Source of the DNA: Leisingera sp. M658 | GTDB lineage: Bacteria > Pseudomonadota > Alphaproteobacteria > Rhodobacterales > Rhodobacteraceae | NCBI RefSeq assembly: GCF_025144145.1 | Contig: NZ_CP083546.1 | Location: 2,496,501 to 2,560,500 of the forward strand | Length of the DNA: 64,000 nt | Reading direction: 5' to 3' | Part shown: piece by piece, positions 5,608 to 53,483 of the stretch | How positions within the stretch are numbered: position 1 is the first letter of the stretch | How the letters are laid out: each line of letters starts with the position of its first letter | Notes under the pieces: model-generated | What the model was told of the DNA's origin: nothing | What the model saw: only the letters and a program-made list of their open reading frames with translations | The model's database searches: none | Program-made: the position numbers and the translations under genes

Positions 5608-6831
5608 TTACCCGGCAAGTTCGGCACGATTCAGCGCACAATGCGACCACAATGCGTCCATCGCCTGGACCAGCGCGTCGATTTCCTTGGGGCCGTGCAC
5701 TGGCGACGGGGTAAAGCGCAAACGCTCGGTACCGCGCGGCACAGTCGGGTAATTGATCGGCTGCACGTAGATGCCATAGTCCTCCAGCAGATGGTCGGAC
5801 AGCACTTTTGTGTGCACCGGGTTGCCGACAATCACCGGCACGATGTGGCTGCCATGATCAATGATCGGCAGGCCAAGACCCTTAAGCCGCAATTTCAGCA
5901 CCTTGGCCTGGTCCTGATGCTTGTCGCGCAGATCCTGCGCGCCCTTCAGATAGGCAACCGAGGCCGCCGCCCCTGCCGCAACCGACGGCGCAAGCGAGGT
6001 GGTGAAGATGAAGCCCGGCGCATAAGAGCGGATCGCGTCGCACATCTTGGCCGAGGCTGCAATATAGCCGCCCATCACGCCGTAGGCCTTGGCAAGCGTG
6101 CCGTTGATGATGTCAATGCGGTGGGCCAGACGGTCGCGCTCTGCCACGCCGCCGCCGCGCGGGCCGTACATACCAACCGCGTGGACTTCGTCGATATAAG
6201 TGAGCGCGCCGAATTCATCGGCCAGATCGCAAAGGGCGTCAATCGGGCCGAAATCGCCATCCATCGAATAAATCGATTCAAAGGCGATCAGCTTGGGCGC
6301 CTTGGGGTCGTCCGCTTCCAGCAGTTCGCGCAGATGCGCCGCGTCATTGTGGCGGAAGATACGCTTGGCGCCGCCATTGCGGCGCACGCCCTCGATCATC
6401 GAGGCATGGTTCAGCGCATCGGAATAGATAATCAGCCCCGGGAACAGCTTGGGCAGAGTGCTCAGCGTGGCGTCATTGGCGATGTAAGCCGAGGTGAACA
6501 GCAGCGAGGCTTCCTTGCCATGCAGATCCGCCAGTTCGGCCTCCAGCTGCTTGTGATAAACCGTAGTGCCGGAAATGTTGCGGGTGCCGCCGGAGCCTGC
6601 GCCGGTCGAATCGATCGCATCATGCATCGCCTCCAGCACAACCGGATGCTGGCCCATGCCCAGATAGTCATTGCCGCACCAGACGGTGATGTCCTGTTCG
6701 CCGCCGTCCGGACGGGTCCAGACCGCATGCGGGAAATGGCCCTTCTTGCGCTCGATGTCGATAAAGGTCCGGTAGCGGCCCTCGTCGTGAAGGCTGGCAA
6801 TCGCTGCATCCAGTTTCGCGGTATAGTCCAC
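5608..6831 (-). CDS. hemA: 5-aminolevulinate synthase (GTG start)
   Basis: Condenses glycine with succinyl-CoA to 5-aminolevulinate, the first tetrapyrrole step (Shemin pathway), using PLP. Near-identical motif order to Rhodobacter Hem[67 protein letters not shown], the PLP lysine in [13 protein letters not shown], and [12 protein letters not shown] chose the GTG at 6831 because it gives 407 residues, the length I recall for Rhodobacter HemA, starting [11 protein letters not shown], and has GGAG six bases upstream. ATGs at 6843 and 6837 are alternatives. An FNR-like box lies at 6984-6997. Confidence 0.96.
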
Positions 6832-6983
6832 CGGCATCTCCATGGCTTCATGCGGCCCCAGGGGCACGCGGGCTGTGTAAAGGGCACGGCCTGTCGGCGA
6901 TGCGGCCACATTCACGGTCCGGAATGATTACCGCAGGCACCCCTTTTGATCAACTGCATACGCGCCGCCCTAGGTGCGCAACA

Positions 6984-6997
6984 TTGATGCAGGTCAA
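6984..6997 (-). promoter_or_regulatory. FNR/FnrL-like box upstream of hemA
   Basis: Read towards hemA this is TTGAC-CTGC-ATCAA, one mismatch from TTGAT-N4-ATCAA. It sits about 150 bp upstream of the hemA start. FnrL control of hemA is documented in Rhodobacter; here it is inferred from the motif. No other gene is seen between 6832 and 7217. Confidence 0.6.
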
Positions 6998-44523: not shown

Positions 44524-46893
44524 TTACCCGTTCATCGCCGCCCAGACCCGGGCGGGCGACAGCGGCATGTCGATATGGGTCACATCCTTGCCTGCCGACT
44601 GCAGTGCATCGACCACCGCATTTACCACTGCTGGCGGCGATCCGATGGCCCCGGCCTCGCCGCACCCCTTCACGCCCAATGGATTGTGGGTGCAGGGCGT
44701 CTGGCAAGAATGATCAACCTGATAGAACGGCACATCATCGGCGCGCGGCATGGCGTAGTCCATGTAAGACGCCGACAGCAATTGCCCGTCTTCGTCATAG
44801 GCGGCGTTTTCCAACAGCGCCTGGCCGATGCCCTGCCCCAGCCCGCCATGGACCTGGCCGTCAACGATCATCGGATTGATGATATTGCCAAAATCATCGG
44901 CAGCCGCAAAGCGCTCGATGCTGACCTTTCCGGTGTCGGGATCCACCTCCACCTCGCAGGCATAGGCGCCGGCCGGATAGGTAAAGTTGGCCGGGTCGTA
45001 AAACGCGGTCTCCTCCAGTCCCGGCTCCAGCTCCTCCAGCGGGTAGTTATGGGGCACATAAGCGGTCAGGGTCACATCGCCCCAGGCCACCGATTTGTCA
45101 GTGCCCGCAACGGTGAACTGGCCGTCCTTCAGCTCAATATCGGCGTCAGACGCCTCCATCAGATGAGCGGCGATCTTCTTGGCCTTATTGATGATCTTCT
45201 CGGTTGCCCGCACCATGGCCGAACCGCAGACCGCAATCGAGCGCGACCCGTATGTGCCCATGCCAAACGGCACCCTGCCGGTGTCGCCATGCACGATGTC
45301 GATCATGCTTTCATCAATGCCGATCATGTCGGCCACCACCTGCGGAAAGGACGTCTCGTGCCCCTGCCCGTGGCTATGGGCGCCGACAAAAACGCTGATG
45401 GTGCCGGTGGCATTGACCCGCACTGTGGCTGCATCATAAAGACCAGCGCGTGCGCCCAGCATGCCCACAATGTTGGAGGGTGCAATGCCGCAAGCCTCAA
45501 TATAGCAGTTGACGCCAAAGCCGCGCAGTTTGCCCTTGGCTTCGCTCGCCGCACGGCGGGCGGCAAAACCTGCCACATCGGCGACCTCCTCGAGCTTGTC
45601 CATGGTCGCCACGTAATCGCCGGTGTCATAGGTCAGCGCCACCGGGGTTTCATAGGGAAACTCGGTGATGAAGTTCTGACGGCGCAAGGCAATCGGGTCG
45701 GCGCCAAGCTCGCGCGCGGCCTTGTCGATGACACGCTCCAGCTGATAGGTCGCCTCGGGCCGCCCTGCACCGCGGTAGGCATCCACCGGCACCGTGTTGG
45801 TGAACACGGTCTTCACGTTCACCTGTACGATGGGCGTCTTGTAGTTACCCGCCATCAGGGTGCCGTGCAGATAGCTGGGCACCGAGGTGGAGAAGGTCGA
45901 CAGATACGCCCCCATATTGGCCATTGTATTGGTGCGCAGCGCGGTGAAATTATTGTCCGCGTCCAGCGCCAATTCGATCTTGGACACGTGATCACGGCCA
46001 TGCGCGTCAGAGATGAACGCTTCGGACCTTGTCGAGGTCCATTTCACCGCCCGCCCGCAGGCCTTGGCGGCATGGGTGCAAAAGGCTTCCTCGGCATAGT
46101 GGAAGATCTTGGAGCCAAAGCCGCCGCCCACATCAGGTGCCACCACCCGCACCTTGTGCTCGGGCAGGCCCAGCACAAAGGCGCACATCAGCAGGCGGAT
46201 CACATGCGGGTTCTGGCTGGTGGTGTGCAGCGTGTAGTCATCGGTGCCGCGGCTGTATTCGCCGATGGCCACACGCGGCTCCATCGGGTTGGCGACCAGA
46301 CGGTTGTTGACCAGCTCCAGCGTCGTCACATGGGCGGCGCTGTCAAAGGCCGCCTGCACCGCAGTATCGTCATCATTGCCGAACACCCAGTCATAACAGA
46401 GGTTTGAGGTCAGATCCTCATGCACCTTGGTGCTGCGGTCCGCCAATGCTCGGGCCATATTCACAACCGCAGGCTTGTCGCTGAGGTCCAGCTCAATGGC
46501 CTCTGCCGCGTCGCGGGCCTGCTCGACTGTGTCGGCGACCACTGCGGCGACGATCTCGCCCACGTGGCGGATGGTGCCGTCGGCGATGATCGGGTGGCGC
46601 GGCTCCTGCTGCGGGTTGCCGTGGCGGTCGGTTACGCCCCAGCCGCAGGGGATGCCGCCGACCTCGGCGAAATCAGCGCCGGTGAAGATCTTCACCACGC
46701 CGGGCATTGCCGCAGCCGTGCTGGTGCCGATCGAATTGATGGTTGCATGGGCCACATCCGCGCGCAGGAAATGCACATGGGCCTGGCCGTGCACGTTGAT
46801 GTCGTCGGTATAGTTTCCGGCTCCTGTCAGGAACCGCACGTCCTCGCGCCGCTTGGGGCTGGCGCCGATGCCGCTGTCATTGTCCTTGGGCAT
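44524..46893 (-). CDS. coxL: Form II aerobic CO-dehydrogenase-like large (Mo-cofactor) subunit
   Basis: The 789-residue catalytic subunit, xanthine-oxidase family. N-terminal [23 protein letters not shown]-cofactor contacts VGGGFGSK and [19 protein letters not shown], and C-terminal [20 protein letters not shown] with the catalytic glutamate. The active-site loop reads AYRGAGR (residues 372-378), the form II signature; form I true CO dehydrogenases have AYRCSFR with the Cu-ligating cysteine. So CO need not be the substrate, and what it oxidises is unknown. GGGAGGAAGATCCAGAC precedes the ATG. Confidence 0.93.
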
Positions 46894-46995
46894 GTCTGGA
46901 TCTTCCTCCCTGGAGGGTGCTGCCGTGGCGCACCTCTTGGTAATCACTCCTTGTTCAACTCAGGCCGCTCCCTGTCGGCCTGGGGTCGTCATCTG

Positions 46996-47481
<486 letters not shown>

Positions 47482-47604
47482 AGTACCCTCCCTTTAGCTT
47501 GTTTTTGTCTGGCTGGGGGGAGTTAACCACGGGCGGGGCCATCCGCGAAGTGTTTTCAGGGCGGTAACGGGGGTAAAATTCGCGTCAGACGGGCCTGCCT
47601 AGGG

Positions 47605-47623
47605 TTGTGACCTTGCGTCACAA
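47605..47623. promoter_or_regulatory. Dyad TTGTGAC-N5-GTCACAA upstream of coxSLM
   Basis: Perfect 7-bp arms. Resembles a CRP/FNR-family half-site pair (TGTGA...TCACA) but with 7 rather than 6 bases between. The region 47482-47645 has no gene. Confidence 0.6.
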
Positions 47624-47645
47624 ATCACGTGCCGCAACGCCGCAT

Positions 47646-48647
47646 TCAACCTTCTGCATCGCGGCGCGGCATCGGGCGGGTGGGAATCTCCTTCAGCAAC
47701 CCGCCGACGCCCATCGCGGCGATATCGGCGGAGGTGACGGGCAGGCCGCAAACCACCCGCTCCAGCACCCAATCGGCGCCATTGAGCGCCGGAGAGCGCG
47801 CGCAGCCCGGCAGGCCAATGACAGGCCTGTCCCGAAAGCTGCCCAGAAACAGCAGGTTGCCGGGATCGACCGGCATACCGAACCGGGTGACGCTGCCACC
47901 CGCCTTGCGCAAAGCCTCAGGTGCGACATCGTGAGTGTCGGAGGTCGCCGAGCCGGTCAGCACCAGCAACAGCTGTCCCGGTGCCCGGGCGATGGCCTCT
48001 GCCAGCGCGTCCTCGCGGTGCGGTACCACAACGCGCGGCGACAGGGGGATGCCCATCCGGTGCAGGCGCCCGGCCATCGCGGCGCGGCCTTTGTCCGGCG
48101 GCGTCTCGTCACTCACCTGCGTTTCAATCAGCGTGGCAGAGGAGAACACCGGCGGCAGCACCCGGATCGCATCCCCTGCGCCGTCGCTGGCGCGGCGGAT
48201 GGCGTCGGCGGCGACGCCATAGGAAATGATCTTGATCGTGGCCAGCATCCCGTCTGCGTCCGCCCGGTGATAATCCGGCACGGTGGCAACGGTGATCATC
48301 GGGTCCGCCGCGTTGACGGCCTCCAGCTTGGCCCGGTCCAGCCGCACCAAACCGGAGCGGTCGGCATAGAGGTTCACCCGGCCCGTACCTGCGCCGGAAA
48401 TGCGCACACCCTGCGCCGAGGGGTCCGGTACCAGCGCATGTCCAAGCGTTGCTGCGGCGGCGTCCTCGTGCAGATCGGCTGGGTCGAGCCGGGCCACGGT
48501 TAGGGTTTCATGCCCCGCTGCGGCGAGATCTTGGAGGTCATCTGCAGTCAGCACCGTGCCCTTGGCCACCTTACGGCTGCCCCCCTGCAGCGAATGTGCG
48601 AGGATGGCGCCCTTGGCCTGTTGCAGCGGGACGGGTCCGAACCTCAT
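47646..48647 (-). CDS. Molybdopterin-binding (MoeA/MoCF-like) protein
   Basis: A 333-residue cytoplasmic protein related to MoeA/MoCF proteins, probably handling molybdenum cofactor for the cox enzyme. The N-terminal part (RKVAKGTVLTADDLQDLAAA, LTVARLDPADLHEDAAAATL) resembles MoeA domain III/IV; the C-terminal MoCF fold shows LLLVLTGSATSDTHDVAPE, GGSVTRFGMPVDPGN and RPVIGLPGCARSPALNG. Typically paired with XdhC in cox clusters. Its ATG overlaps the XdhC stop (ATGA). Which step it takes in Mo-cofactor modification is unknown. Confidence 0.82.
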   Translation of the reverse strand: MRFGPVPLQQAKGAILAHSLQGGSRKVAKGTVLTADDLQDLAAAGHETLTVARLDPADLHEDAAAATLGHALVPDPSAQGVRISGAGTGRVNLYADRSGLVRLDRAKLEAVNAADPMITVATVPDYHRADADGMLATIKIISYGVAADAIRRASDGAGDAIRVLPPVFSSATLIETQVSDETPPDKGRAAMAGRLHRMGIPLSPRVVVPHREDALAEAIARAPGQLLLVLTGSATSDTHDVAPEALRKAGGSVTRFGMPVDPGNLLFLGSFRDRPVIGLPGCARSPALNGADWVLERVVCGLPVTSADIAAMGVGGLLKEIPTRPMPRRDAEG

Positions 48648-49624
48648 GGCTGTTTGCCGCGCAGCACGGCGGTCATTTCGGCCAGGATGGACACGGCGAT
48701 TTCCGCCGGGCCGGCGGCGCCGATATCAAGGCCGATAGGGCCGTGGATGCAGTTGATCTGCTTTGCGCTGAAGCCGGCGCCCTGCATCCGCGCCACCCGG
48801 GCGGCTTGTGTTTTCTTCGATCCCAACGCGCCGATGTAGAACACATCTGCCTTCAGGGCCGCTTGCAGCGCCGGATCGTCCAGTTTCGGATCATGCGTCA
48901 GCAGCACCAGCGCGGTGCGGCTGTCGAGACCGAGCTTTGCCACCGCCTCGTCCGGCCAATCATCCATCAGGGTCTCGCCGGGGAAGCGTTCCGGCGAGGC
49001 GAAGGCCGCGCGCGGGTCGATGATCACCACGTCATACCCCGCGATCCGCGCCATCGGCACCAAGGCTTGGGTAATGTGTACGGCCCCGACGCAGACCAGA
49101 CGCAGCGGCGGGTTGTGAACGGCCACAAAGGTTTCGCCGTCTTCTTCCAGGCCAGAGCGGTCCAGGCGCATCCGGTCGGGGTATCCATCGCGGACCAGGC
49201 GGCGGGTGCCGGTGGCGAGGTTCACCTCATAGGCCGCGGGCGTGCGGTTAGCGCGGGCCTCTGCCAGTTCTTGCAGCAGGTCCATGGGCAGCGCAGTGCC
49301 GACCGGCTCCACCAGCACCTTGATGGTGCCACCGCAGGCGAGGCCCACGGCAAAGGCGTCCGCATCGCTGACGCCGAATTCCAGCAAACGGTGACGGCCG
49401 TCCTGCAGTGCGTCAAGTGCTTCGGCCACCACGGCGCCCTCGACGCAGCCGCCGGAGACGGAGCCTTCGATCTTGCCATCTCCCGAGACCACCAGCTGCG
49501 AACCGGCGCGGCGCGGCGCCGAGCCCCAGGTCTGCACCACAGTGGCCAGCGCCGCGCCTGAACCGGAACGGTGCCATTCCAGGGCTGTCTCAGGCGCGTT
49601 CTCAAACGGGTTTGTGGTCTGCAT
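48644..49624 (-). CDS. XdhC/CoxI family Mo-cofactor maturation protein
   Basis: A 326-residue chaperone that binds Moco and passes it, sulfurated or cytidylated, to molybdenum hydroxylases. N-terminal XdhC_CoxI domain: ATVVQTWGSAPRRAGSQLVV, IEGSVSGGCVEGAVV. C-terminal Rossmann-like XdhC_C domain: LRLVCVGAVHITQALVPMAR, VIIDPRAAFASPERFP, VLLTHDPKLDDPALQAAL and YIGALGSKKTQAARV. GGGGAGG precedes the ATG at 49624; the longer upstream reading frame is not supported. Overlaps the next gene by four bases. A terminator lies upstream in the neighbouring unit, so this gene begins a new transcription unit. Confidence 0.9.
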   Translation of the reverse strand: MQTTNPFENAPETALEWHRSGSGAALATVVQTWGSAPRRAGSQLVVSGDGKIEGSVSGGCVEGAVVAEALDALQDGRHRLLEFGVSDADAFAVGLACGGTIKVLVEPVGTALPMDLLQELAEARANRTPAAYEVNLATGTRRLVRDGYPDRMRLDRSGLEEDGETFVAVHNPPLRLVCVGAVHITQALVPMARIAGYDVVIIDPRAAFASPERFPGETLMDDWPDEAVAKLGLDSRTALVLLTHDPKLDDPALQAALKADVFYIGALGSKKTQAARVARMQGAGFSAKQINCIHGPIGLDIGAAGPAEIAVSILAEMTAVLRGKQP

Positions 49625-49712
49625 GCGGCGTCCTCCCCGCCGGTTTGCCCGGCTTTGAGCCTCAAAGGTCGGGGTTTGCAGCCTTGGTTTCAAGCGGGAA
49701 GTTGCGGCGTCC

Positions 49713-49744
49713 AAACAGAAAACGCCCGCCGGAACGGGCGGGCG
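49713..49744 (-). terminator. Terminator of the YeeE/YedE unit
   Basis: On the minus strand CGCCCGCC pairs with GGCGGGCG around CGTTCC, followed by TTTTCTGTTT. It ends transcription 25 bases after the second YeeE/YedE gene, separating it from xdhC. Confidence 0.88.
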
Positions 49745-49769
49745 CTTGGGGCTTGCTTGGGTGCGGTGG

Positions 49770-50360
49770 TTATTCCGCCGGCTGCAGTTCAGCCTTTTGC
49801 GGCACCAGCCGCTGCGGCAGGGCAAAGGCCAGTGCGATGAATCCAAGGCCCAGAAGGATGCCCAGCAGATCGCCAGGCAGCGCCATCAGCCCTTCGTATT
49901 TGGCGCCGGGAACTGCGCCCAATGTCACCTTGCCGCCCGCGAAATTGTCCAAAAGGCCGCTGGCCTTCCACGCCGGATAGGTCGCCATATAGGCCGCCGC
50001 GCCCAGCAGGCCCCCTGCGATAAAGAACAGCGCGTCCTTGCGGCCCGAAGCGGCGGCGACAACGCCGGTGCCGGGGCAATAGCCCGACAGCGCCCAGCCG
50101 GCACCCAGCATCAGCCCGCCGATGAAAACACCGGTATAGGCCGCCTTGACCGACATATGGCCGGCATCGACCAGCCCCGCCATCTGGCCGCCGAACATCA
50201 GCACCGAGCCGGTGCCGATTGCCAGCAGGATGGATTTGGCCAGGTCCAGATTGGTGAGGTTCAGCATCTTGCCGATAAAGCCGGGGTTCGACGCTCCGAT
50301 CCGGTCCAGCACCGCACCAAAGGCAGCACCGGTCACAATTGCCAATAGAATGGTTGTCAT
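49770..50360 (-). CDS. YeeE/YedE family transporter, half B
   Basis: A 196-residue inner-membrane protein with about six hydrophobic segments. The family motif with the conserved cysteine appears as ALSGYCPGTGVVAAASGRKD, and AGLVDAGHMSVKAAY follows the same pattern. YeeE/YedE (TsuA, PmpA/B, DUF395) proteins move thiosulfate or other sulfur species, with cysteines in the pore. Half-length members act as a pair; the partner starts at 50915 and ends three bases before this gene. The predicted substrate is inferred only. Confidence 0.87.
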   Translation of the reverse strand: MTTILLAIVTGAAFGAVLDRIGASNPGFIGKMLNLTNLDLAKSILLAIGTGSVLMFGGQMAGLVDAGHMSVKAAYTGVFIGGLMLGAGWALSGYCPGTGVVAAASGRKDALFFIAGGLLGAAAYMATYPAWKASGLLDNFAGGKVTLGAVPGAKYEGLMALPGDLLGILLGLGFIALAFALPQRLVPQKAELQPAE

Positions 50361-50363
50361 GGC

Positions 50364-50915
50364 TCAGGCCTCCTTTTTGAACAGCAGTAGCGAGACGGGG
50401 ATGGCAGCGGCAAAGGCTCCGGCAGCGAAGATATAGCCCGAGAGCGCGGTTTGCATCATGCCGGACATCATGTGCCCCGAGGTACAGCCGCCTGCGAGGC
50501 GCGCGCCGTACAGCACGATGAAGCCGCCCAGGAAAGCCGCGGCGTAGCGTTTCATCCGGCAGCCGCCGAAGTTGGCGCGCCAGAGCGCGGGGATTGTCCG
50601 CTCAGCCTGCGGGATGCCGCCGCGCAGACTGGCCGAAAGCAACCCGCCCAGCGCCATCGCCAGCACAAAGACAAAGCTGTAGTTCAGCGGGCTGACGACG
50701 GCCTTGGCGTATTTGCCGTCCGATTTTGCCAGATAGGCGTTGGTGGAGGTGGTGCCTTCGGCGGTTTCTGTCACCAGTCCGGGGAACACCGCATCTGCGA
50801 TAATGCCGTCCAGGATCACAAATTGCGTTGAAACCCCGATGGGTTTGACCAGCAGCACCGCCAGAAAGAACACCAGCCCCAGCAAGAGGCCTCCGGCTTT
50901 CCAGTTGAGAGTCAT
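50364..50915 (-). CDS. YeeE/YedE family transporter, half A
   Basis: A 183-residue inner-membrane protein with about five hydrophobic segments: AGGLLLGLVFFLAVLLVKPI, YSFVFVLAMALGGLLSASL, AAAFLGGFIVLYGARLAGGC. The conserved cysteine motif is LAGGCTSGHMMSGMMQ. A classical partner of half B. AAAGGAG precedes the ATG; the 99 bp upstream hold two SqrR-like dyads and an FNR box. This leader and the downstream terminator make the pair an independent two-gene unit inside the cox cluster. Confidence 0.87.
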   Translation of the reverse strand: MTLNWKAGGLLLGLVFFLAVLLVKPIGVSTQFVILDGIIADAVFPGLVTETAEGTTSTNAYLAKSDGKYAKAVVSPLNYSFVFVLAMALGGLLSASLRGGIPQAERTIPALWRANFGGCRMKRYAAAFLGGFIVLYGARLAGGCTSGHMMSGMMQTALSGYIFAAGAFAAAIPVSLLLFKKEA

Positions 50916-50937
50916 GTCAGCTCCTTTCGCACGTTAC

Positions 50938-50953
50938 ATTCAGATTTCAGAAT
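50938..50953. promoter_or_regulatory. SqrR/BigR-like dyad 1 (ATTC-N8-GAAT)
   Basis: ATTC-AGATTTCA-GAAT, flanked by C and G to make CATTC...GAATG. Lies 23 bases before the start of YeeE half A, over the likely promoter. Confidence 0.7.
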
Positions 50954-50976
50954 GCAACGTGGAAGCGGGGAGCGGA

Positions 50977-50990
50977 TTGATCCAGATCAA
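50977..50990. promoter_or_regulatory. Perfect FNR/FnrL box
   Basis: TTGAT-CCAG-ATCAA, no mismatch to the FNR consensus, centred between the two ATTC-N8-GAAT dyads. Confidence 0.75.
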
Positions 50991-50995
50991 GTGAC

Positions 50996-51011
50996 ATTCC
51001 ATTTATGGAAT
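50996..51011. promoter_or_regulatory. SqrR/BigR-like dyad 2 (ATTC-N8-GAAT)
   Basis: ATTC-CATTTATG-GAAT, perfect inverted repeat over 16 bp. It ends three bases before the stop of coxE (51015). Confidence 0.75.
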
Positions 51012-51014
51012 TTG

Positions 51015-52268
51015 TTAACCGAGCATTGCCATCAGTCTGGCCTTCTCGCCCGCATCGGAGGGGCTGGAAATCACCTGTGCCAGATCCTGCAGCGAGGCGA
51101 TGGAATGGCCCGCGCGAAAACTGTCGGTATAGGGCAGCATGGCGCGGATACCCTGGGCCTTTGGGGCAAAACCGTCCCAGCGCAACAAGGGGTTCAGCCA
51201 GATCAGGCGGCGCGACGACAGCTGCAGGCGCTGCATCTCACGGGCCAAAGCCTCCGGGTCGCCGCGGTCCAGCCCGTCGGTGATCAAAAGCACCACCGCC
51301 CCCTGCCCCATCACCCGCCGCGACCAGTCGCGGTTGAAGGCGTGCAGGCAGTCGCCGATCCGGGTGCCGCCCTCCCAGTCCTGCGCCTCTGATCCCGCTG
51401 CAGCCAGGGCCGCGTCCACGTCGCGCTGATGCAGATGGCGGGTGATATTCGTCAGCCGGGTGCCGAAAGTGAAGCCATGCACCCGCGCCCAGCCTTGCCC
51501 ATTTGCATTGGCGGCGGCGTGCAGGAAATGCAGGATGATGCGGCTGTACTGGCTCATCGAGCCGGAGATATCGCAGAGCACCACCAGATTGGGCCAGCGG
51601 ATGCGGCGCCTGACGCGGGCGATCTGCTGCAATTCGCCGCCCTGGCGGGCTGCATTGCGCAACGTGCGGCGCCAGTCGGGACGTGTCCCTTGCGGCGATG
51701 CCATCAGCCGCCGCGACTGGATCGGTGTCACCGGCAGGGTGAGCTGCGCAAGGATGCGTTTGGCGGCGGCGATCTCCGACGTGCTCATCTGTTCGAAATC
51801 GAGGGTTCTGAGCCGTTCTTCGGCTGACATGGTGAGGGTGGTGTCCACCTCGACCTCGGTGCCGTCCTCATCATTGTCCGGTGTCTCCGGCTGGTCCCGC
51901 ATACCGTCCAGCAGCGCCTCTGCCGCGCGTTTTTCCGCCGGTTTTGCGGCGCGGTCCTCCTGCACGCCGCGGATCGCAGGCAGCATGGCGGCCATCATGT
52001 GTTCCAGATAGCGCGGGTCGCGCCAGAACAGGCGGAAGACCTGGGCGAAGACCGCCCGTTGCTCGGGCTTGGTCACGAAACAGGCGTGCAAGGCCCAGTA
52101 GAAATCCGTGCGGCTGGTGAAGCCCGCGGCGGCCACCGCCCGCACCGCACCCAGCACCCGGCCCGGCCCGGCCGGCAGCCCCGCCTTGCGCAGGGCGCGG
52201 GCGAAATGAGTGATGTTGCGGACCAGCTTGGGGTGGTCCGGCAGGGGGAGCGGCGGAGTGTCTGGCAC
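51015..52268 (-). CDS. coxE: VWA-domain CoxE-like protein (GTG start)
   Basis: A 417-residue cytoplasmic protein of the CoxE family. N-terminal helical part (PKLVRNITHFARALRKAGLP, TDFYWALHACFV), a middle segment (TPDNDEDGTEVEVDTT), and a C-terminal VWA domain with the MIDAS motif VLCDISGSMSQYS and ITDGLDRGD. CoxE works with the AAA+ protein CoxD in maturing the Mo-Cu or Mo site. I start at GTG 52268, the only start before LPLPDHPKLVR; the Shine-Dalgarno is weak. A dispersed hairpin repeat lies between it and coxD. Confidence 0.9.
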   Translation of the reverse strand: MPDTPPLPLPDHPKLVRNITHFARALRKAGLPAGPGRVLGAVRAVAAAGFTSRTDFYWALHACFVTKPEQRAVFAQVFRLFWRDPRYLEHMMAAMLPAIRGVQEDRAAKPAEKRAAEALLDGMRDQPETPDNDEDGTEVEVDTTLTMSAEERLRTLDFEQMSTSEIAAAKRILAQLTLPVTPIQSRRLMASPQGTRPDWRRTLRNAARQGGELQQIARVRRRIRWPNLVVLCDISGSMSQYSRIILHFLHAAANANGQGWARVHGFTFGTRLTNITRHLHQRDVDAALAAAGSEAQDWEGGTRIGDCLHAFNRDWSRRVMGQGAVVLLITDGLDRGDPEALAREMQRLQLSSRRLIWLNPLLRWDGFAPKAQGIRAMLPYTDSFRAGHSIASLQDLAQVISSPSDAGEKARLMAMLG

Positions 52269-52278
52269 TAGGGCAGCT

Positions 52279-52326
52279 CATGGGGGCTCTGCCCCCAAAC
52301 CCCCGGAGTATTTCTGGAAAGATGAA
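52279..52326 (+). repeat. Dispersed hairpin repeat copy between coxD and coxE
   Basis: CATGGGGGCTCTGCCCCCAA and following ACCCCCGGAGTATTTCTGG and AAAGATGAA; inverted relative to the copy at 44471-44520. Confidence 0.8.
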
Positions 52327-52329
52327 CCA

Positions 52330-53238
52330 TCAGGCCGCATCCAGGCTTGCCCGGGCCTGATCCAGGATGCGTTTGGCCTCGGAGCCGTGCAGGCGGGCGA
52401 TATCATCCTGGTATTTGAGGATTGCGCCCAGGGTGTCGGCGATCACCTCGGGGCTGAGGGCGATGACGTCGAGGGCCAGCAGGCAATTGGCCCAGTCGAT
52501 TGTTTCCGCAACACCCGGTTTTTTGAACAGGTCTTCGGTGCGCAGGGATTGCACAAAGGCGACGATCTCGCGGCTGAGCTGCTCGCTGGCCTCGGGCGCG
52601 CGGGCGTTGAGGATTTCAATCTCGCGGGGGAAATCCGGGTAGTCGACCCAATGATAAAGACAGCGGCGTTTCAGCGCGTCATGCACTTCCCGTGTGCGGT
52701 TGGACGTGAGGATGACGATGGGCGGTTCCGGCGCCTGGATGGTGCCAAGCTCGGGGATGGTGACCTGGAAATCGCTGAGCGCCTCCAAGAGGAAAGCCTC
52801 AAACGGTTCATCGGTGCGGTCGAGTTCATCGATAAGCAGGACGGGGGCGCCGTTTTCATCCGGGCGCATCGCCTGCAACAGCGGCCGTTCTATGAGGTAG
52901 TCAGCCGAGAACAGTTCCGCCTGCAGGGCGGCGCGTTCGGCGCTGCCTGCGGCCTCGGCGGTGCGGATGGCGACCATCTGGGCAGCGAAGTTCCATTCAT
53001 AGACGGCGCTGGCGGCGTCCAGCCCCTCGTAGCATTGCAGCCGGATCAGGCGGCGGCCCAGTGCGGCGGCAATGGCCTTGGCGATCTCGGTTTTGCCGGT
53101 GCCGGCCTCGCCCTCCAGAAACAGCGGGCGGCCCAGTTTCAGCGACAGGAACACCACAGTGGCCAGAGACCTGCCGCAGATATAGCCCTGCTCTGCCAGC
53201 ATGTGCTGGACCTGACCGATGGATTGCGCCTGCTGCAT
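52330..53238 (-). CDS. coxD: MoxR-type AAA+ ATPase (CoxD-like)
   Basis: A 302-residue AAA+ chaperone of the MoxR family. Walker A is FLEGEAGTGKTEIAKAIA, Walker B VLLIDELDRTDEPFEAFLLE, sensor 1 VILTSNRTREVHDALKRRC. In the cox system CoxD assembles or sulfurates the Mo site. MQQAQSIGQVQHML is the chosen start (ATG 53238), with GGGAGG 6 bases upstream. First gene of the cox set as transcribed. The next upstream region (53239-53483) is divergent with the glycosyltransferase gene. Confidence 0.92.
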   Translation of the reverse strand: MQQAQSIGQVQHMLAEQGYICGRSLATVVFLSLKLGRPLFLEGEAGTGKTEIAKAIAAALGRRLIRLQCYEGLDAASAVYEWNFAAQMVAIRTAEAAGSAERAALQAELFSADYLIERPLLQAMRPDENGAPVLLIDELDRTDEPFEAFLLEALSDFQVTIPELGTIQAPEPPIVILTSNRTREVHDALKRRCLYHWVDYPDFPREIEILNARAPEASEQLSREIVAFVQSLRTEDLFKKPGVAETIDWANCLLALDVIALSPEVIADTLGAILKYQDDIARLHGSEAKRILDQARASLDAA

Positions 53239-53483
53239 GTTGTGCCTCCCCTTGCCCTGCCAACAGGCCATGCGGCGCGGCATCGGTCAAGCCGCGTGGT
53301 GCGGCGACGCTGCGGCGGCGGGGTTGCCGGGGGCGGTTGAATAACCGGGCCTGCCGGGTAAAACTGCCGCGGGAAGACCCTGCAGACGGCCAGGGCAAGA
53401 GGACAGGGACAGGAACGCCAGCCATGCACCGCGTTTTTCGCAAACACGCCGGCCCGAGCGGCCAGGATCAAAGGCGCTAGGGG

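Follow-up and report, generated by a model that had tools for sequence, protein, structure and literature searches.

In a Leisingera-like genome (4.89 Mb) a pair of YeeE/YedE half-transporter genes is preceded by what we consider, with fair probability, to be a composite promoter, which would be activated by FnrL and repressed, most likely, by SqrR2 (a name given here to a stand-alone paralogue of SoxR), so that the pair would be made under low oxygen in the presence of reactive sulfur. The sites occupy a gap of 99 bp in the window, i.e. the whole analyzed stretch of 64,000 nucleotides (C1:2496501-2560500), between a CoxE-like gene (51015-52268) and the transporter pair (50364-50915 and 49770-50360), all of these genes lying on the minus strand. 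On the plus strand the gap contains an exact ATTC-N8-GAAT dyad, ATTCAGATTTCAGAAT, at 50938-50953, a second exact dyad, ATTCCATTTATGGAAT, at 50996-51011, and the exact TTGAT-N4-ATCAA box TTGATCCAGATCAA at 50977-50990. An earlier note on this DNA had reported two exact dyads and a perfect FNR box before the YeeE/YedE pair, and all three sites were recovered at the same positions.

Read in the direction of the genes, the distal dyad ATTCCATAAATGGAAT (50996-51011, minus strand) is located directly upstream of the FNR box TTGATCTGGATCAA (50977-50990, minus strand), its start 21 nt ahead of the box, while the proximal dyad ATTCTGAAATCTGAAT (50938-50953, minus strand) begins 37 nt downstream of where the box starts and overlaps the predicted -10 element and start site. 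The putative -10 element, CATTCT (50949-50954, minus strand), was deduced from 54 promoters anchored on their FNR boxes, and transcription is predicted to start at 50942 (minus strand), 27 nt before the ATG, if the FNR box centre is at -41.5. A GGAG ribosome-binding site, read from the sequence, precedes the ATG (50915) at 50921-50924 (minus strand).

The transporter pair and its gene neighborhood

The first gene (50364-50915, minus strand) encodes a PmpA-like YeeE/YedE half transporter of 183 aa that matches positions 177-308 of the 310 positions of Pfam Sulf_transp, and the second (49770-50360, minus strand) a PmpB-like half transporter of 196 aa that matches positions 8-117 of 310. The first protein thus corresponds to the C-terminal half and the second to the N-terminal half of the family, the PmpA/PmpB arrangement described in the accessible part of PMC11582611. 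According to the same part of that source, pmpAB of H. denitrificans showed no response to thiosulfate, which counts against our reading. Cysteines, candidates for the conserved functional residue of each half transporter, are found in the motifs GGCTSGHM and GYCPGT of the pair, as read from the translations. In the collection searched, the transporter gene has its closest named relative in Leisingera aquimarina, at 93% identity. Besides a YeeE-family gene adjoining soxR, the genome carries two more full-length ones (G000:C1:3048907 and C1:2655426).

The pair is embedded, between the CoxE-like and an XdhC-like gene, in a form II CoxL-like molybdenum-hydroxylase cluster (window 44524-53283, minus strand). 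The genes downstream of the pair are XdhC-like, molybdopterin-domain, 2Fe-2S and CoxL-like. In the CoxL-like protein we noted AYRGAGR, taken to be the form II CoxL signature; this protein scores below the NCBIfam cut-offs for CO dehydrogenase. It is conceivable that the pair supplies sulfur to the molybdenum-hydroxylase cofactor. Among the orthologous loci of relatives (best 80 of 414), XdhC was found downstream in 59 and CoxE within 1 kb upstream in 49, and neither was found in 13, some of which are cut by contig ends. Since the sites persist in several loci of this last kind (L062, L092, L097, L109), the regulatory module goes with the pair and not with its neighbors. Within 4 kb on either side of the transporter in the 80 loci, or up to the contig end where this came first, no gene of the SqrR/SoxR class was found, which counts against the proposed repressor.

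Conservation of the sites across relatives

The window contains three exact dyads and one exact FNR box. Because shuffled sequences gave a mean of 0.81 dyads and 5 of 100 shuffles reached three, three dyads in the window are, taken by themselves, weak evidence. The third dyad (6910-6925) is located at the start of the gene 5608-6925, presumably 5-aminolevulinate synthase-like, and may be a chance occurrence; upstream of the same gene there is a one-mismatch FNR box, TTGATGCAGGTCAA, at 6984-6997. In the whole genome, exact dyads number 31 and exact FNR boxes 11. Random placement at these frequencies would give about 0.011 dyad pairs as close to each other as those in the gap, and about 2e-6 such pairs that also share the 99 bp with an exact FNR box; both figures are rough.

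Conservation across orthologous loci is stronger evidence than the count in the window. We scored 150 bp upstream of the orthologous transporter genes in the best 80 of 414 relatives. One or more exact dyads were present in 62 of these 80 upstream regions and two or more in 27; an FNR box was found in 53 when one mismatch was allowed (17 exact), and an exact dyad together with an FNR box in 47. The FNR box is missing at this threshold in the other 27 loci, which counts against the composite promoter. The 80 upstream regions hold 89 exact dyads, compared to 2 in 637,180 bases of remaining locus DNA and to a mean of 0.2 (maximum 2) in shuffled upstream regions.

As the sites are conserved upstream, nearly absent from the flanks and held at set FNR-dyad spacings, they go beyond chance. 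The idea that they are chance palindromes in an AT-rich gap, for which one could cite the genome-wide dyads and the shuffles that reach three per window, was rejected on the conservation across the 80 loci and is in our view extremely improbable. Of the 28 dyads outside the window, 18 fall inside ORFs by a rough ORF map, including one sox-cluster dyad that we think was assigned to an ORF wrongly. Three of the 10 remaining dyads are further sites of the sox cluster, another precedes a metallo-beta-lactamase-fold gene, and about six intergenic dyads have no evident sulfur link by the same rough map. The earlier note would have been contradicted by frequent dyads in unrelated intergenic DNA, a pattern that this distribution does not show.

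Promoter geometry

Relative to the FNR box start, and among those of the 80 loci that have an FNR box, 26 dyads start at +37, 17 at +12 and 14 at -20/-21, and the proximal dyad, with its 26 cases at +37, therefore has a set position. Distal and proximal dyads are combined, as in the window, in 12 of the 80 loci, and a middle and a proximal dyad in 13; the middle dyad lies between the FNR box and the predicted -10 element and shares two bases with the end of the box. No exact dyad was present in 18 loci, and the others show one or another layout. The flanking of the FNR box by two dyads, as previously proposed, is thus true of the window, but it is just one of two layouts in the family, the other having a dyad between the box and the -10 element.

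When the 54 promoters (window included) are aligned on the FNR box, the consensus TATTCT appears at offsets 36-41, with each base present in 56-81% of the sequences. In class II FNR promoters the box is centered at -41.5. With the FNR box placed there, TATTCT comes to lie at -12 to -7, the class II position of the -10 element, and ATTC, the left arm of the proximal dyad, would then belong to the -10. This arrangement is consistent with a class II FNR promoter whose predicted -10 falls inside one dyad, and a repressor bound at the proximal dyad would cover both the -10 and the predicted start site. As in class II FNR/FnrL promoters generally, the box centre would lie about 41.5 bp before the predicted start, with the putative -10 at the matching distance. 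The promoters described here differ in that the putative -10 shares bases with a predicted repressor operator arm and in that, in one layout, two bases of the box are also part of the second operator.

Candidate activator

FnrL is encoded at C1:571633-572400 and reaches 460 bits on NF045989 (curated cut-off 300). The COX1-family gene adjoining fnrL has an exact FNR box in front of it. The HTH_Crp_2 model gave 24 matches in the genome, 11 of them over the cut-off and not all of them CRP/FNR proteins; these matches include at least five CRP/FNR-like proteins besides FnrL. Given these further proteins, and as TTGAT-N4-ATCAA is also a Dnr/Anr-type site in the portion of PMC5398030 available, the FNR box might, in place of FnrL or in addition to it, serve a different regulator of the CRP/FNR type (Dnr-like, NO- or nitrite-linked). 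We regard this as quite unlikely, with an FnrL over its cut-off in the genome and an exact box before the gene next to fnrL.

Two candidate repressors of the SqrR class

Among 13 HTH_5 matches in the genome only two have a cysteine pair 66 residues apart (Cys41/107 and Cys42/108). SoxR is encoded at C1:2243806-2244144 in a presumed sox cluster, and its paralogue SqrR2 at C1:487882-488214, about 2 Mb from the window on the same contig. Both have as best solved matches 13ct, 6o8l and 6o8k (E 1e-31 to 3e-35), which we take to be R. capsulatus SqrR, and neither reaches the BigR equivalog NF040642 (98.8 and 104.5 bits, cut-off 155). By their cysteines and closest structures, SqrR2 and SoxR probably belong to the SqrR/BigR/SoxR class of sulfane-sulfur-sensing ArsR proteins. 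The sox cluster and its gene names are our assumption from the protein sequences, Pfam having been run only on SoxR and on the gene that follows it, a full-length Sulf_transp gene. SqrR2 lies between an FAA-hydrolase gene and an enolase-family gene, with no sulfur gene as neighbor and no exact dyad nearby, either at its own locus or in 20 relative loci, which counts against it as the repressor. Its presumed TTG start is found within an inverted repeat, AATATGCGGCA...TGCCGCATATT (L157:7205-7245, minus strand), which is also present in L225 and not evident in more distant relatives.

A SoxR-like gene is present in 21 of 21 genomes of the genus and a second match, at 51-56% identity, in 18 of 21. 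In the repressor tree the SqrR2 clade (n=56, support 0.975) and the SoxR clade (n=63, support 0.991) are separate, with 16 sequences outside both, including the solved SqrR. All 56 SqrR2-clade sequences have M in the recognition helix where all 63 SoxR-clade sequences have Q, and further differences exist outside the helix. The solved SqrR has Q at this position, which counts against SqrR2.

Repressor genes were searched in 78 of the 80 genomes, L042 and L048 being left out. In five no repressor was found, and four of these have neither an FNR box nor a dyad, even at one mismatch; the fifth, L103 (a MAG), has a dyad and no detected repressor, which counts against the association. In the 73 repressor-bearing genomes an exact dyad was found in 59. 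The 14 without one also count against it, 9 of them having a one-mismatch dyad. Dyad and repressor presence are associated with P 0.009, ancestry being ignored. The repressor acting in the window is probably of the SqrR/SoxR class, and the proposal of dual SqrR-type and FnrL control with the repressor in trans gains support by inference from the presence of FnrL and two SqrR-class proteins, although there are two candidate repressors and not one.

Two operator dialects

Exact dyads number 4 in the sox region of the own genome. Of the 20 corresponding regions taken from relatives, 19 contain 1 to 4; the remaining one, L259, has the repressor gene with neither sox cluster nor dyad. The dyads lie in or beside the presumed soxW-soxX gap in 19 of 19 regions and between soxA and soxB in 16 of 19. 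Their half-sites read ATTC-A/G, with a purine at position 5, in 96 of 98 cases, and the two exceptions, with a pyrimidine, belong to dyads located within soxC (L249:2831, L257:2805). In the short loci around repressor genes exact dyads are present in 5 of 60, four of these beside soxR-soxS of close relatives, and it is the wider sox regions that carry dyads.

Transporter half-sites, in contrast, are ATTC-C/T in 119 of 148 cases where SqrR2 is present (57 genomes, window included), and in 5 of 28 where SqrR2 was not found (22 genomes). Counted per genome, a pyrimidine majority is seen in 37 of 48 with SqrR2 versus 0 of 13 without, and at least two dyads occur in 26 of 57 versus 1 of 22. The 11 SqrR2 genomes that have dyads and no pyrimidine majority count against the association. 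L059 was moved into the SqrR2 group as a probable member, on a 55%-identity match, and both the half-site and the per-genome counts use the moved row. Absence of a repressor means no match at E 1e-12, and several such genomes are MAGs. P values for half-sites and genomes ignore shared ancestry, and the tests are weakened by this ancestry and by those absences that come from MAGs. SqrR2 presence changes 9 times on the transporter tree, on which L062, L074, L091 and L103 stand amid SqrR2-bearing genomes and lack a pyrimidine majority. That the pyrimidine dialect is solely a by-product of the overlap with the -10 element was rejected, since arms off the -10 are also mostly pyrimidine (27 of 34, 33 of 40 and 28 of 40, compared to 31 of 34 for the proximal left arms).

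In the window dyads 3 of 4 arms carry the pyrimidine, so that the inner bases are not of the sox type, and the two dyads score +26.5 and +13.9 with the transporter PWM. When the own genome was left out of the training, the PWMs still told its 4 sox dyads apart from the 2 dyads before the transporter pair. A one-mismatch search of the genome for the SqrR2 dialect gave 28 places, both window dyads included and none of them exact. One sox-dialect dyad, ATTCACACATGTGAAT, is found at G000:C1:2662643 (L006:3644) between the metallo-beta-lactamase-fold gene and a short-chain dehydrogenase gene, a possible further SoxR target.

Because the inner bases of the window dyads match the dialect linked to SqrR2, SqrR2 is the likelier repressor. 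The same switch could be run by the SoxR of the sox cluster, with the pair as a member of the sox regulon. SoxR-type operators share ATTC-N8-GAAT, SoxR-like genes are found throughout the genus, the SoxR helix is the closest to that of SqrR, and L062, L094 and L109 have only a SoxR-like gene yet keep their dyads. This reading is nevertheless unlikely in our view, given the nearly pure purine sox half-sites, the pyrimidine transporter half-sites where SqrR2 is present and the far better fit of the window dyads to the transporter PWM; SoxR as sole repressor had been an early working idea and was downgraded once the dialects appeared. The earlier assignment of ATTC-N8-GAAT to SqrR/BigR gains support at the level of the repressor class; the motif itself is silent on which of the two proteins acts, and it is the inner bases that favor SqrR2 over SoxR.

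Relation to known systems

In Acinetobacter baumannii BigR controls the yeeE-yedE-pdo2 operon, as given in the accessible part of PMC7315123, so that this kind of regulation is already known. Common to both systems is the control of a YeeE/YedE pair by a persulfide-sensing ArsR repressor of the SqrR/BigR class, which in our case is predicted. Here, however, no repressor or dioxygenase gene adjoins the pair, whose neighbors are CoxE-like and XdhC-like; neither candidate reaches the BigR model cut-off, the promoter contains an FNR box, and a second paralogue, SoxR, is associated with another dialect. E. coli YgaV binds near the start site and the polymerase sites at an ATTC-N8-GAAT-like sequence, according to the part of PMC9774250 available. 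By the same part of that source, SqrR of R. capsulatus and YgaV are two-cysteine ArsR repressors with such an operator, which in ygaVP lies on the core promoter; the system described here is predicted to resemble them in these respects. What sets it apart is the target, a YeeE/YedE pair whose FNR box has class II spacing, and the M of SqrR2 in place of the Q of SqrR. SoxR of the sox cluster, as treated in the accessible part of PMC10451225, belongs to the same protein class, shares the outer operator bases and is present in the same genome, whereas the sites differ, being ATTC-A/G in sox regions and mostly ATTC-C/T at transporter promoters. In the accessible parts of the SqrR papers searched we found no statement of the site motif, its letters appearing in one of them solely within a primer table. 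A search for R. capsulatus among 394 genomes of the family, aimed at the SqrR sites of that species, gave no match at E 1e-48, an empty result that carries no weight. The composite of FNR box and SqrR-type operators before a YeeE/YedE pair and the dialect split look new; in the accessible parts of the open-access literature searched we found no description of either, which is no proof of absence from print.

Proposed mode of action

We suggest that FnrL is active in the absence of oxygen, occupies the FNR box at about -41.5 and brings RNA polymerase to the putative TATTCT-like -10. A reduced repressor dimer, most likely of SqrR2, would sit on the proximal dyad over the -10 and start site and on the second dyad upstream of the box, and transcription would be blocked. 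The second dyad may make repression tighter, either because polymerase or its upstream contact is obstructed or, in the overlapping layout, through competition with FnrL. Sulfane sulfur would react with the two cysteines of the repressor and release it from the DNA, so that the pair would be made only when low oxygen and reactive sulfur coincide. We infer the binding events, this AND logic, the choice between the two paralogues and the putative sulfur substrate of the transporter from sequence.

More tentatively, and with somewhat less than even confidence, we propose for the Rhodobacteraceae that two paralogous sulfane-sulfur repressors are separated by one operator base pair per arm (purine for SoxR, pyrimidine for SqrR2) and by one helix residue (Q or M), with SqrR2 perhaps nearly dedicated to a single FnrL-driven transporter promoter whose -10 is at the same time an operator arm, an AND gate for oxygen and sulfur, and with a second operator that switched sides of the FNR box between lineages. 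If true, the sensing of low oxygen and of reactive sulfur would be joined at one promoter of marine Rhodobacteraceae, which would tell when PmpAB-like transporters are made. It would also offer a testable case of paralogous repressors dividing their target sites, and the dialects hint at how two sister sulfur sensors avoid cross-talk.
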